A stretch of DNA of 64,000 bases from Leucobacter luti (GTDB lineage Bacteria; Actinomycetota; Actinomycetes; Actinomycetales; Microbacteriaceae). Below, piece by piece: positions 646 to 25,840 of this stretch. The position numbers were made by a program, and so were the translations under genes. The notes below the pieces were generated by a model. That model did no database searches. It saw only the letters and a program-made list of their open reading frames with translations, and was not told the DNA's origin. The stretch is from contig NZ_CP080492.1 of the NCBI RefSeq assembly GCF_019464495.1, positions 310,001-374,000 of the forward strand, in the 5' to 3' direction. Each line of letters begins with the position of its first letter. Position 1 is the stretch's first letter.

Positions 646-1339
646 ATGTGCGGGAGAGTCATTGTCGACTACGACGAGAACATGGGCGTGGCCAAGGGGA
701 CTGAGCTCGCGGGCTGGCTTACTGAGCGGCCGGCGGGCTATCAGCCGAGCTGGAACTTGAAGCCGACGCAGCCTATCCCTGTAGCGTTTCACTGACCATA
801 AAGACGGCGAGCACCGATTCGAGTATGCGTACTGGTCGCTTGTCCCGATCTGGTCGAAGGAACTCAAGACGAAGTTCCCCACGTTTAACGCACGCTCTGA
901 GACGGCAGCGGAAAAGGCCAGCTTCAAAGCGTCGGTGAAGAACCGGCGCTGCATCATCCCGGTCACCGGATTCTACGAATGGACGGGCCCGAAAACGAGT
1001 CGGACTTCGCACGCGATCTTCGGCCCTGACCCAATCATCCCCATGGCCGGCCTCTACTCTTGGTGGCACGAACCAGACGCCGGTGATGATGAGGGATGGC
1101 ATCTCACCGCGACGATCCTTACACGTGCATCTTCTGGTGTGATGGAACCGCTGCATGACCGAATGCCGGTCTTCATGTCAGACGAGCTGCTGGGGGACTG
1201 GCTGGACCCGGAGACTTCCGGTGATCAGCTATTGATGGATGCTGTCTCGGAGGCGTCGCTGCCGATCAGTGAGCAGCTGCGCGAGTATGCGGTGAAGCCG
1301 TTGCGTGGTGATGGGCCGGAGCTAATTCTGCCCGCTTGA
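646..1339 (+). pseudogene. SRAP-family (YedK/HMCES-like) abasic-site protein, frameshifted
   Basis: SRAP proteins crosslink to abasic sites in single-stranded DNA through Cys2. The gene opens with ATG-TGC (MCGRV, so Cys2 is present), but the frame ends at a TGA at 793-795. Dropping one T from the TTT run at 787-789 restores AFTDHKDGEHRFEYAYW and then NARSET, GFYEW (active-site Glu) and LHDRMPV (active-site His) through to the stop. All expected catalytic residues are therefore present, split over two frames. A single +1 indel is the only lesion seen, so this is either a recent pseudogene or a sequencing indel. Intact length would be about 230 residues, normal for the family. Its 3' end overlaps the end of a small minus-strand gene. 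Confidence 0.85.
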
Positions 1340-19936: not shown

Positions 19937-20007
19937 GGGGATGTAGCTCAATGGTAGAGCCTTAGTCTTCCAAACTAATTACGCGGGTTCGATTCCCGTC
20001 ATCCCCT
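19937..20007 (+). tRNA. tRNA-Gly (anticodon TCC)
   Basis: The acceptor GGGGATG pairs with CATCCCC, discriminator U. The anticodon loop reads CTTCCAA and the T-arm is GCGGG-TTCGATT-CCCGT. CCA is not encoded. Its last 23 nt are the start of a tandem array, with four further copies downstream; this is the only complete tRNA of the series. Confidence 0.95.
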
Positions 20008-20677
20008 CTGAACGGGCCTTTTCCTCCACGAGAAGGCCCGTTCTTTGCGTTCACCACTCCGTGAATCCCAATGAACCCGGAACTGGCTTCGCAGGCTCAG
20101 CCAGCGCCACAGCCGCGCAACGCTGCGCGTCGCCCCATGCGGCCAGGCGGGGTTCGATTCCCGTCATCCCCTCTGAACGGGCCTTTTCCTCCACGAGAAG
20201 GCCCGTTCTTTGCGTTCACCACTCCGGGAATCCCAATGAACCCGGAACTGGCTTCGCAGGCTCAGCCAGCACCACAGCCGCGCAACGCTGCGCGTCGCCC
20301 CATGCGGCCAGGCGGGGTTCGATTCCCGTCATCCCCTCTGAACGGGCCTTTTCCTCCACGAGAAGGCCCGTTCTTTGCGTTCACCACTCCGGGAATCCCA
20401 ATGAACCCGGAACTGGCTTCGCAGGCTCAGCCAGCACCACAGCCGCGCAACGCTGCGCGTCGCCCATGCGGCCAGGCGGGGTTCGATTCCCGTCATCCCC
20501 TCTGAACGGGCCTTTTCCTCCACGAGAAGGCCCGTTCTTTGCGTTCACCACTCCGCGAATCCCAATGAACCCGAACCTGGCTTCGCAGGCTCAGCCAGCG
20601 CCACAGCCGCGCAACGCTGCGCGTCGCCCATGCGGCCAGGCGGGGTTCGATTCCCGTCATCCCCTCTGAACGGGCAC
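19985..20677 (+). repeat. tRNA-Gly 3'-end tandem array (four ~165-bp units plus a partial fifth)
   Basis: The T-loop TTCGATT recurs at 19988, 20153, 20318, 20482 and 20646, giving periods of 165, 165, 164 and 164 bp. Every unit holds the last 23 nt of tRNA-Gly (T-arm 3' part, acceptor 3' strand, discriminator), the tRNA terminator hairpin, and about 105 bp containing two smaller hairpins (CTGGCT...AGCCAG and GCGCA-ACGC-TGCGC). Units differ at only a few positions: the base after CTCCG, G/A in CCAGC(G/A)CC, GGAAC against GAACC in unit 4, and four or three C before ATGCGG. The fifth copy diverges after GAACGGG and has no terminator. Layout matches the E. coli tyrT/rtT type of locus. Confidence 0.95.
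20010..20046 (+). terminator. Terminator of tRNA-Gly(TCC), first of four copies
   Basis: GAACGGGCCTT pairs perfectly with AAGGCCCGTTC across a 12-nt loop and is followed by TTT. Identical hairpins recur at about 20175, 20340 and 20504 within the array. Confidence 0.8.
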
Positions 20678-20984: not shown

Positions 20985-22493
20985 TTGCCGAAGACGACAG
21001 CTGAGAAGCTCACTCCGACCCGCGTCAAGCTGAGCGTTGACGTCACGCTCGACGAGCTGGAGCCCTACCTCAAGCAGGCGTACAAGACCATTGCCGAGCA
21101 GGTTTCGATTCCTGGCTTCCGCAAGGGCAAGGTTCCGGCACCGATCATCGATCAGCGCGTCGGCCGCGAAGCAGTCATCCAGGAAGCCGTCAACGCTTCA
21201 CTCGATAACTTCTACCAGGTCGCACTCGGCGAGTCGAACGAGCGCCCGATGGGTCGCCCGACTGCAGACGTGGCTGCATGGCCCGATGCGAAGGACCCGA
21301 AGAGCACGCTCAGCCTCGTGTTCGAGGTTGAGGTTCGTCCCGAGTTCACGCTGCCCAAGTACGACGGAATCAAGCTGACCGTCGACAACGCGCAGATCGA
21401 CGCCGACGCTGTCGAGGCAGAGCTCACGAAGCTGCGCGAGCGCTTCGGAACGCTCGTCACGGTCGATCGCCCCGCGAAGACCGGTGATTTCGTCGAGCTC
21501 GATCTCGTCGCAACGGTCGACGGCGAAGAGGTCGACCAGGCTTCCGGCGTCTCCTACGAGGTCGGAGCAGGCAACCTGCTCGAAGGCACCGATGAGGCAG
21601 TTGAGACGCTCACCGCCGGTGAGTCCACCACCTTCACCTCGCAGCTGCTCGGCGGCGAGCACGAGGGCCGCGACGCTGAAGTGGCGCTGACGCTGACCGC
21701 TGTCAAGGAGCGCGAGCTTCCGGAAGCTGACGATGAGTTCGCACAGCTCGCGAGTGAATTTGACACTATCGATGAGCTCCGAGAGAGCCTCAAGGAGCAG
21801 GTCGGCCGCGCCGGTGTGTTCGCACAGGGCCAGCAGGCACGCGACCTCTTCACCGACACGCTGATCGAGAAGGCCGGCATCCCGGTTTCCGAGGAGCTCG
21901 TCGAAGAAGAAGTCCACCGTCACCTTGAGGGCGAAGGCCGTCTCGAAGACGACGAGCACCGCGCAGAGGTCCGCATCTCGTCGGAGAAGCAGATCCAGCT
22001 GCAGCTGCTGCTCGACGCAATTGTTGAGGCCGAGGAAGTCACCCCGACCCAGAACGAGCTCTCGCAGTACATTTTCCAGTCGGCACAGCAGTACGGCATG
22101 GAGCCCACGGAGTTCCTGCAGGCGATCAGCCAGGGCAACCAGATGGGTGTCATCCTCGGCGAGGTCACCCGCAACAAGGCGCTCGCGCTCGCGCTCGCCA
22201 AGGCAACTGTTGTCGATCAGGACGGCAACGCCGTTGATCTGAGCGAGTTCACCGCGGTTGACGTCGAAGACGAGGCAGAGGCAGAGGGCGCCGAGGATGC
22301 GCCTGCCGAGAAGCCCGCCAAGAAGGCACCCGCGAAGAAGGCCGCTGCAAAGAAGGCCGACAAGCCTGCAGCGACCGAGGAGCCCGCTCTCGACGATGAC
22401 GAGGCTGCCAAGAAGGCCGCACGCTCCGCCGCAGCAAAGAAGGCCGCAGCGACCCGCGCAGCAAAGAAGGCCGCTGCTGAGGCAGCAGAGTAA
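20985..22493 (+). CDS. tig: Trigger factor
   Basis: This ribosome-bound chaperone and peptidyl-prolyl isomerase meets nascent chains at the exit tunnel. The ribosome-binding signature [12 protein letters not shown] is at about residues 44-55, the FKBP-like domain follows (about 160-250), then the helical arms. The last 65 residues are Lys/Ala-rich low complexity (repeated [11 protein letters not shown]), an extension common in actinobacteria and probably disordered. Start TTG with GAGAGG upstream. It heads the tig-clpP1-clpP2-clpX run. Confidence 0.96.
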
Positions 22494-24069: not shown

Positions 24070-25341
24070 ATGGCGAAGATCGGCGAAAGCAGCGAGCTGC
24101 TCAAGTGCTCCTTCTGCGGCAAATCGCAGAAGCAAGTGCAGCAGCTTATTGCGGGACCCCAGATCTACATCTGTGACGAGTGCGTTGCGTTGTGCAATGA
24201 GATCATCGAAGAGCGCCTTGCCGAGACACAGACGAGCGAGTCCTCTGATTTCACCCTTCACAAGCCCCGTGAGATCTCTGATTTCCTCGACGAGTACGTC
24301 ATCGGGCAGGATCGCGCGAAGCAGTCCCTTGCGGTTGCTGTGTACAACCACTACAAGCGGGTGCGTGCCGCAGCTACGCTCACGAGCGCAGATGTTGTGG
24401 CTGAGCAAGTCGAGATTGAAAAGTCCAATATCCTCATGATCGGGCCGACCGGTTGTGGCAAGACCTACCTCGCACAGTCGCTCGCACGGCAGCTGGGAGT
24501 GCCTTTCGCGGTGGCGGACGCTACGGCCCTCACAGAGGCGGGGTACGTCGGCGAAGACGTCGAGAACATTCTCCTCAAGCTGCTCCAGGCAGCAGACTTC
24601 GACATCCAGCGCGCTGAAACCGGCATCATCTACATTGACGAGATCGATAAAATCTCGCGCAAGGCTGAGAACCCGTCAATTACTCGCGATGTGTCGGGAG
24701 AAGGCGTGCAGCAGGCGCTGCTGAAGATTCTCGAGGGCACCGTCGCCTCAATTCCGCCGCAGGGCGGCCGCAAGCATCCGAACCAGGAATTCCTGCAGCT
24801 CGACACCACCAATGTGCTGTTCATTGTTGCCGGTGCGTTCTCCGGGCTTGAAGAGATCATCGGCTCGCGCCTCGGGAAGGGCGGCATTGGCTTCGGAGCC
24901 CCGGTGACCACTCGGCGCAACGACGAAAACCTCTTCGCCAAAGTGGAACCCGAGGATCTACACAAGTTTGGATTGATCCCCGAGTTCATTGGCCGCCTCC
25001 CCGTTGTGGCGACGGTCGACCCACTCGACGTGCCGGCCCTCACCCGGATCCTCACCGAACCACGCAATGCGCTCGTGAAGCAATACCAGCGCATGTTTGA
25101 GCTGGACGGCGTCGGTCTTGAGTTCGAGGAGGCGGCGCTCGAAGCGATCGCCGAACTCGCCGTCGAGCGCAAGACAGGCGCCCGAGGCCTGCGCTCGATC
25201 CTGGAGCGCGTCCTGGGCTCTGTGATGTTCGAGGTGCCCTCGAGCGACGAGGTCACCAAAGTCATCGTGACTCGCGAATCTGTGCTGGGGGAGACCGGCC
25301 CGCGTGTGCTGCAGGCCCGAGGCGGTCGCGAAAGCGCCTAG
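24070..25341 (+). CDS. clpX: ATP-dependent Clp protease ATP-binding subunit ClpX
   Basis: ClpX is the AAA+ unfoldase that feeds ClpP. The N-terminal zinc-binding domain reads CSFCGKSQ...CDECVALC, Walker A is GPTGCGKT, Walker [11 protein letters not shown], and [21 protein letters not shown] is the family core (in pieces: [12 protein letters not shown]). The pore loop GYVGEDVE is also present. At 423 residues it is full length. GAAGGAG precedes the ATG. Confidence 0.98.
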
Positions 25342-25840
25342 GGAGCCGACTGTCCGGTCCCGCAATCGCTGGAGTCTGCCCTTCGGACACCGCCCACGCA
25401 CTCCAAGCGGGCCCACGCTCCAGCCTCGCTACACAAGGCGGCCTCGCCAAACGCTCCAGCTTCGCTACACAAGGCAGCCTCGCAAAACGCTCCAGCCTCG
25501 CCAAACACGGTAGCCTCGCCAACCGCTCCAAGCTGCGCCCACGCGAAATCCTCGCCTACCCGCTCGGGCGACGCTGGGAGCGTGCGCGCGAATTGACGGG
25601 AGTCTTGTTCTCGCTGCCCGCGCCTGGACAAGCGCACGTTGACGCAGTGCTTCGGAATCGCGCCAGCACAACGCTCTCCCACGTGCGAAACGCGGAGGCG
25701 GGGAGTGCTGAGACGGCACTTCGATCCGCGACTACCCGCACGAATACGACGCGTTCGCCCCACAGCGGTGTTTCGGCACACGTGAGTCACGGTCACGCAG
25801 ACAGCCTCAGCCACTTCGCTCCCGCACAGTGCATGCAGGG
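25342..25840. other. Long intergenic stretch with a short tandem repeat, no recognised gene
   Basis: Open frames exist on both strands but their composition follows the repeat and no family is recognisable. It separates the clp genes from the convergent lipoprotein gene. Confidence 0.45.
25417..25524. repeat. Three tandem copies of a 36-bp repeat
   Basis: GCTCCAGCCTCGCTACACAA begins the unit, which also contains GGCGGCCTCGC. Copies 1 and 2 differ at three positions; copy 3 is diverged, and a fragment (GCTCCAAGCTGCG) of a fourth follows. The period is a multiple of three, which keeps spurious frames open. Confidence 0.75.

Follow-up and report, generated by a model that had tools for sequence, protein, structure and literature searches.

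The window, by which we mean the whole stretch of 64,000 nucleotides of Leucobacter luti DNA analysed here (window coordinates are genome coordinates minus 310000), contains a tRNA-Gly(TCC) gene whose 3' end forms the start of a tandem array (Table 1). TRF places the array at 19985-20675, with a period of 165, 4.2 copies, 98% matches and a score of 1326, and a whole-genome BLAST search with the tRNA and the first unit as the query gave unit starts spaced at 165, 165, 164 and 164 bp. Together with the ARAGORN call of the tRNA, these results bear out the preliminary description, which had read this DNA as four units plus a partial fifth, built on the last 23 nt of the tRNA. We refer to the copied tRNA end as the tail; its 23 nt are identical in each copy. 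Each full unit continues with a terminator-like hairpin, an anti-tail and a core, E, which is about 71 nt long and has two hairpins. The repetition of the terminator hairpin, also part of the preliminary description, was recovered as an identical 14-bp hairpin in each of the four full units, compared with 1.4 such hairpins expected in shuffled sequences. The anti-tail had been missed: it is an imperfect inverted copy of the tRNA T-arm, with an insert of about 5 nt, inside each unit. The last tail copy (X' below) stops within the left arm of the terminator.

Table 1. Features of the tRNA-Gly(TCC) locus, in window coordinates.
Feature	Position	Strand	Source or remark
tRNA-Gly(TCC)	19937-20008	+	ARAGORN; Rfam tRNA model matches 19937-20007
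Copied tail, last 23 nt of tRNA-Gly(TCC)	19985-20007	+	
Unit 1 (tail, terminator, anti-tail and E), 165 bp	19985-20149	+	TRF, BLAST
Unit 2, 165 bp	20150-20314	+	TRF, BLAST
Unit 3, 164 bp	20315-20478	+	TRF, BLAST
Unit 4, 164 bp	20479-20642	+	TRF, BLAST
Terminal tail copy X', 33 bp, identical; partial fifth unit	20643-20675	+	BLAST
Terminator-like hairpin, unit 1	20010-20043	+	Identical copies at 20175-20208, 20340-20373, 20504-20537
Anti-tail, unit 1	20057-20080	+	Copies at 20222-20245, 20387-20410, 20551-20574
Core E, unit 1 (two hairpins, ends GGCGGG)	20081-20151	+	Model R2, E-value 1.3e-10
Core E, unit 2	20246-20316	+	Model R2, E-value 1.4e-9
Core E, unit 3	20411-20480	+	Model R2, E-value 1.3e-8
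Core E, unit 4	20575-20644	+	Model R2, E-value 4.2e-9

The units differ from one another at several positions and by a 1-nt indel, and the genome that carries the array is one contig of 3.41 Mb, so both the collapse of the array in assembly, a concern raised when it was first described, and its false expansion are unlikely. The suggestion of a Tpr-like repeat protein is poorly supported: a 202-aa ORF repeats in frame over units 1 and 2, but the frame shifts after the 164-bp units. The window also contains a 36-bp tandem repeat (3.2 copies at 25415-25530 by TRF) that lies shortly 3' of a clpX-like ORF (24070-25341) and is unrelated to the array by eye, and lysine/alanine-rich repeats at 22315-22474, at the C-terminal end of a trigger-factor-like ORF (20985-22493).

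The array has a relative in its own genome, not recognized in the preliminary description: a single-copy unit after tRNA-Gly(CCC), with 74% identity over positions 1-208 of the query. At this second locus the tail copy and the inverted T-arm copy match the CCC tRNA (GAG..CTC), not the TCC tRNA (GGG..CCC). In a first survey of 60 genomes (its own genome and 59 relatives), several genomes of the same genus had the core between two copies of a tRNA end, and in two of these it accompanied tRNA-Val(TAC), whose end was the one copied; many of the relatives' tRNA-Gly loci had no element within 268 nt after the tRNA. A covariance model built from 12 elements (R1; its training elements had tRNA-like tails, and it may favour such sites) gave 138 matches at a cut-off of E-value <= 0.001, in 32 of the 54 genomes of the genus (own genome included) and with up to 17 matches per genome; the other 22 genomes had no match at this cut-off. 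Close-set R1 matches, which are further tandem arrays, occur in six other genomes (G028, G036, G061, G064, G065 and G008), and they suggest that tandem amplification recurs there. The homology search in related genomes that had been proposed as a check yielded many relatives of the array, some of them also in close-set groups. The array is probably a single member, amplified in place, of a small family of dispersed hairpin elements in Leucobacter; the locus is real, and it is wider in scope than first described. For the analysis of gene neighbours and junctions, 108 of the matches were re-found in 94 locus sources, and the analysed set consists of 102 positions in 93 loci, with 37 of the 138 matches outside it; these 102 positions are not independent, with four coming from the window array and three from L087.

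Pattern searches covered a wider range of genomes. A stricter form of the hairpin-2 pattern, run on one genome per species (a scan that may leave out the window's own record), found five loci, all in Leucobacter (three in L. weissii and the others in L. chironomi and Leucobacter sp. Ag1). The exact hairpin-2 pattern, run on 398 genomes of the family, ten of them from the genus, was found only in genome G017, at four places, and the backward control gave 0 throughout. Exact patterns undercount, because the exact hairpin-2 pattern missed the window's own array. Among 297 genomes of the order, model R2 matched the array's own genome only, a weak result with 16 candidates scored per genome. There was no match to the unit among phage and plasmid records, or to the exact hairpin-2 pattern among viral contigs.

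For half of the analysed positions, 51 of 102, ARAGORN calls a tRNA no more than 1 kb upstream. One of these calls, a tRNA-Ser(act) at L100, falls inside the element itself, which leaves 50 tRNA-linked positions with 13 anticodon types, and the tRNAs that precede E are those for Gly, Val, Arg, Ser, Thr, Leu and Met. At 38 of the 51 positions (33 of 43 loci) the sequence after E is a copy of the 3' end of the position's own tRNA, with no more than 2 mismatches in 20; the remaining 13 have no close copy of the own tail. When tails of tRNAs for other amino acids were compared with the sequence after E, 0 of 2024 comparisons fitted. T-arm-like tails are also seen by eye at no fewer than eight loci without a called tRNA (L041, L062, L063, L069, L091, L097, L098 and L102). 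At L041 a tyrosine-integrase-like gene, identified by eye, ends just before the element, and at L063 a similar att-like junction precedes it; both have tRNA-Arg-type tails. Integrating elements may also make use of tRNA sites that carry E.

For the 51 positions without a called tRNA, crude GC-based ORF calls gave an upstream ORF in the sense direction at 22, a sense ORF running through at 2, an antisense ORF at 4, and no call at 23. The idea that E is always sense-oriented was rejected on these counts, and its orientation is biased at best. The sense ORFs that end near E include five kinds that we could recognize by eye from their translations (DNA polymerase I, an HtpX-type protease, PurF, a ribosome hibernation factor and a SURF1-like protein), and at all five the end of the gene is repeated after E. 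The design is therefore not specific to tRNA ends, since the same core stands after 13 anticodon types and at the ends of protein genes.

A duplication score of at least 18 was found at 81 of the 102 positions (43 of the 51 that are listed as tRNA-linked and 38 of the 51 others; 72 of the 93 loci). When 539 places were drawn at random from the same loci, only 6 reached this score, and a single stretch of L127 accounts for five of the 6. The random places were kept away from elements, and they replaced an earlier null of 75 places (median 10, one value 211). The other 21 positions have no clear duplication. Most of the duplications (67 of 81) start at least 60 nt into the match, and the other 14 are mostly element-on-element repeats in arrays, or other repeats. 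The right end of E is mostly GGCCGGG, and 39 of the 67 duplications start 2-3 nt inside this end, at G's that are common to the element end and the target; counting all starts that are 4 nt or less away from it gives 53 of the 67, and 14 start elsewhere. The far end of the duplication varies, from inside hairpin 1 to more than 100 nt before E. Because the starts cluster at the end of E and the far ends scatter, there is one mostly fixed (3') junction and one variable (5') junction. Duplication length ranges from about 20 to more than 100 bp, with medians of 55 bp at tRNAs and 37.5 bp elsewhere (arrays included), and at L058, L060 and L064 the duplicated target includes a terminator. At least one copy of E is shortened at its 5' side (L120), and another is partial at both ends (L128).

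Filled and empty sites were compared between species. In genome G008 the SURF1-like gene is a filled site, with a 52-bp duplication (50 of 52 positions identical) inside the last codons. The ORF continues from the first copy of the duplicated sequence, X, into E and takes a new C-terminus and stop from there; downstream of E comes X again, with the apparent original end of the gene. This is the one filled site among the 17 SURF1 loci that were readable of 30, and the 16 others are empty, with one copy of the sequence and no E. At polA, E is present in one locus and is not visible within 190 nt after the stop in ten others (11 readable of 30).

We think it probable that the window array is a four-fold tandem amplification of a short insertion element that duplicates its target, with a layout like that of the tRNA-linked repeats (TLRs) of E. 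coli. Such an element would go in close to the 3' end of a gene or directly at it, with tRNA genes as very frequent targets. The right end of E would join the target at G's, and the target from that point onward (about 20 to more than 100 bp) would come to stand on both sides, giving X-E-X', in which X' would repeat the 3' end of the tRNA at a tRNA gene and the end of the gene at a protein gene. Identical X and X' would then allow unequal recombination or slippage to multiply (X-E), producing the 165-bp array. We infer that E moves, and that the window array grew by recombination. The X' of the window may be the original target duplication or its remnant, and because it is only 33 bp long and stops within the terminator, the model has to suppose that a deletion followed. 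The tail copy resembles a duplicated target more than it does a signal for RNA processing, because the core is also found at the ends of protein genes with the gene end copied.

Near-identical units that differ in length by 1 nt would also be produced by purely local slippage, in which the tRNA end and the DNA downstream of it were duplicated in tandem by chance with no element involved. This explanation is already contradicted, and made extremely improbable, by the occurrence of the core beside many unrelated genes, joined to other tails, in 32 of 54 genomes. A different reading, which we regard as very unlikely, takes the repeats as attL/attR remnants of tyrosine-integrase islands at tRNA 3' ends, or as short elements mobilised in trans by an integrase. 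It draws on the general knowledge that tRNA 3' ends are classic att sites, and on the integrase-like gene next to the L041 element. However, the length of the duplications is variable over the wide range given above, about half of the positions are not beside a called tRNA, and the integrase gene of L041 is outside an element that already has both of its tails, as for a later and independent integration.

The fold of E was examined in 46 sequences, in which its 23 pairs are formed in 93.7% of cells. There are 170 two-sided changes, compared with a mean of 55.9 in shuffles (0 of 500 as high) and 36 in the best slid version of the structure. The covariation score is 0.424, against at most 0.086 for slid versions, although part of the contrast with slid versions is expected because the structure was read from the same sequences as were tested. 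The stems of E show strong covariation; a covariance model had been called for in the preliminary description.

At tRNA positions, the stretch of about 25 nt before E is often complementary to the tail of the same locus, with a short insert at the T-loop. A complementarity score of at least 16 was reached with the own tail in 34 of 95 cases, as against 71 of 1140 comparisons with the tails of other loci, including loci of the same tRNA type; where no tRNA was called, the scores are mostly at the other-locus level. The sequence of the anti-tail changes from tRNA to tRNA and its insert stays at the same place. In predicted folds, pairing between anti-tail and tail can bring the hairpins together in one closed multibranched structure. 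The plain insertion model leaves the anti-tail unexplained, which may point to selection on the pairing.

The preliminary description had presented the array as an actinobacterial counterpart of the E. coli tyrT/rtT locus. According to excerpts of a 2021 paper on the E. coli TLRs (PMC8144298), these comprise 22 genes at ten loci, placed in tRNA or rRNA operons, and the last 18-19 bp of each repeat exactly the 3' terminus of the gene that precedes it. They were first described in 1978, and the introduction of the paper gives them no known function; the older work that it cites includes Egan and Landy 1978, Rudd 1999, and Bosl and Kersten 1991 and 1994. RrA/B/F sit between two terminators, and their RNAs are made by read-through of the first of these, are processed, and interact with Hfq and CsrA, as stated in the same excerpts (PMC8144298). 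These excerpts also report that the claim linking rtT to the stringent response, which had been part of the case for the counterpart, was retracted (PMC8144298).

The architecture of the proposed counterpart holds up. The window array lies directly downstream of a tRNA, 50 of the 102 positions have a tRNA within 1 kb upstream, and the 3' end of the upstream gene is copied, as in the TLRs described in those excerpts. E. coli tyrT and the window array are both repeated, with an anti-tail that closes a multibranched fold: the K-12 tyrT units have an anti-tail (GGGGAAGGAT), then hairpins and a tail copy, and folding predicts the closed shape in the window unit as well as in two E. coli tyrT units, and also in a second type of Leucobacter element (L019, L026 and L043). 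Where the duplication holds a terminator (L058, L060 and L064), E lies between two terminators as RrA/B/F are described to do (PMC8144298, in part), and with a terminator inside the duplicated target such paired terminators would arise directly. The counterpart fails in sequence: in comparisons of the window unit with two K-12 tyrT units there was no significant similarity (922 and 99 of 1000 shuffles scored as high). The Leucobacter family also differs in being found at protein genes, whereas the excerpts place E. coli TLRs in tRNA or rRNA operons (PMC8144298). Since this layout is shared by protein genes, the copied end of the gene may be a side effect of insertion, and what has been a curiosity of TLRs becomes a testable insertion mechanism, for which the Leucobacter family offers many copies, filled and empty sites, and arrays. 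In an Rfam search of the window the tRNA alone was above the gathering score, with weaker matches below it; Rfam presumably holds a family for the rtT (RttR) RNA, and no RtT family was among the 12 matches at E-values up to 5.

The second TLR-like type follows tRNA-Gly genes (L019, L026 and L043, and L044 by eye) and has a different core, with T-arm copies in both orientations around several GC-rich hairpins. Six comparisons of three elements of this type with E. coli tyrT units gave 8 of 1000 shuffles as high for L026, 13 of 1000 for L043, and 49 to 694 of 1000 for the other four, uncorrected for eight tests. L026 has a 12-mer in common with an E. coli tyrT unit, and the two lowest values were both obtained against one E. 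coli unit.

If the array were instead a functional sRNA locus of the rtT/Rr type, read-through from the tRNA would be cut at the tRNA-like ends to release RNAs of about 100-170 nt, and additional units would raise the dose. The covariation that preserves the strand structure of E fits this idea, as do the better match of anti-tails to their own tails than to those of other loci, the processing and protein interactions of the RrA/B/F RNAs (PMC8144298, in part), and the annotated end of RttR in K-12, which is the exact end of a tail copy. On the other side, the same core occurs at the ends of protein genes that lack a tRNA-like end, release of the ~165-nt RNAs suggested in the preliminary description would have to overcome the terminator-like hairpin that each window unit contains, and 22 of 54 genomes have no match at the threshold used. 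Weighing these points, we consider an sRNA locus an unlikely explanation.

The insertion element that we favour can be set beside several known systems. REPs are short dispersed hairpins outside genes that are tied to Y1 transposases, and to our knowledge they are not flanked by long target copies. The Leucobacter family resembles the REP/RAYT system in its short dispersed hairpins but differs from it in its long target copies, and also in the Y1 transposase (PF01797), which was found in 0 of the 54 genomes of the genus, with 5 of 14 control genomes positive. MITEs are short dispersed repeats with terminal inverted repeats and target duplications of a fixed, short length; Leucobacter too has a dispersed short repeat and a duplicated target, but the duplication is long and variable, and has one end fixed. 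With the target-primed insertion of eukaryotic SINEs and LINEs the family shares a fixed 3' junction at short homology, a variable duplication and a 5'-shortened copy (L120), but no reverse transcriptase is common to the genomes that bear E (PF00078 is present in 7 of 32). We know of no bacterial element of the SINE/LINE target-primed type.

Reverse transcriptase (PF00078) was found in 8 of the 54 genomes of the genus and is absent from the genome of the window. E is present in 7 of these 8 genomes (1, 8, 0, 7, 3, 3, 9 and 1 copies) and in 25 of the 46 without PF00078 (Fisher P = 0.12, kinship ignored), and the mean number of copies is 4.0 with and 2.3 without it (rank test P = 0.07, kinship ignored). 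The 25 of 32 E-bearing genomes that lack PF00078 include the two richest in E, G075 and G028; it is also absent from G036, G074 and G017, and present in G068, G008 and G064, which have 9, 8 and 7 copies. The association is weak and not significant, and speaks neither for nor against an RNA route. A replication error that uses the G run is possible, as is an enzyme outside PF01797 and PF00078. It is doubtful, although conceivable, that E is a bacterial SINE-like element whose structured RNA or single strand would pair by its 3' GGG with a C run in the target, be extended there, and copy the target. If this were true it would account for the fixed 3' junction, the variable duplications and the 5'-shortened copies, and the E. 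coli TLRs would be fossils left by insertions of this type, so that the presence of the host gene's end in each would be accounted for.

Two further observations were made at individual loci. At L115 (positions 991-1107, minus strand), E is seemingly in frame inside an RND-transporter-like gene, with no stop and no clear duplication. At L138 (around positions 990-1250), two copies of another hairpin motif (AAAACGC..GCGTTTT) lie close to a tRNA-Thr element, and similar words occur in L146; this motif is perhaps another small repeat family.
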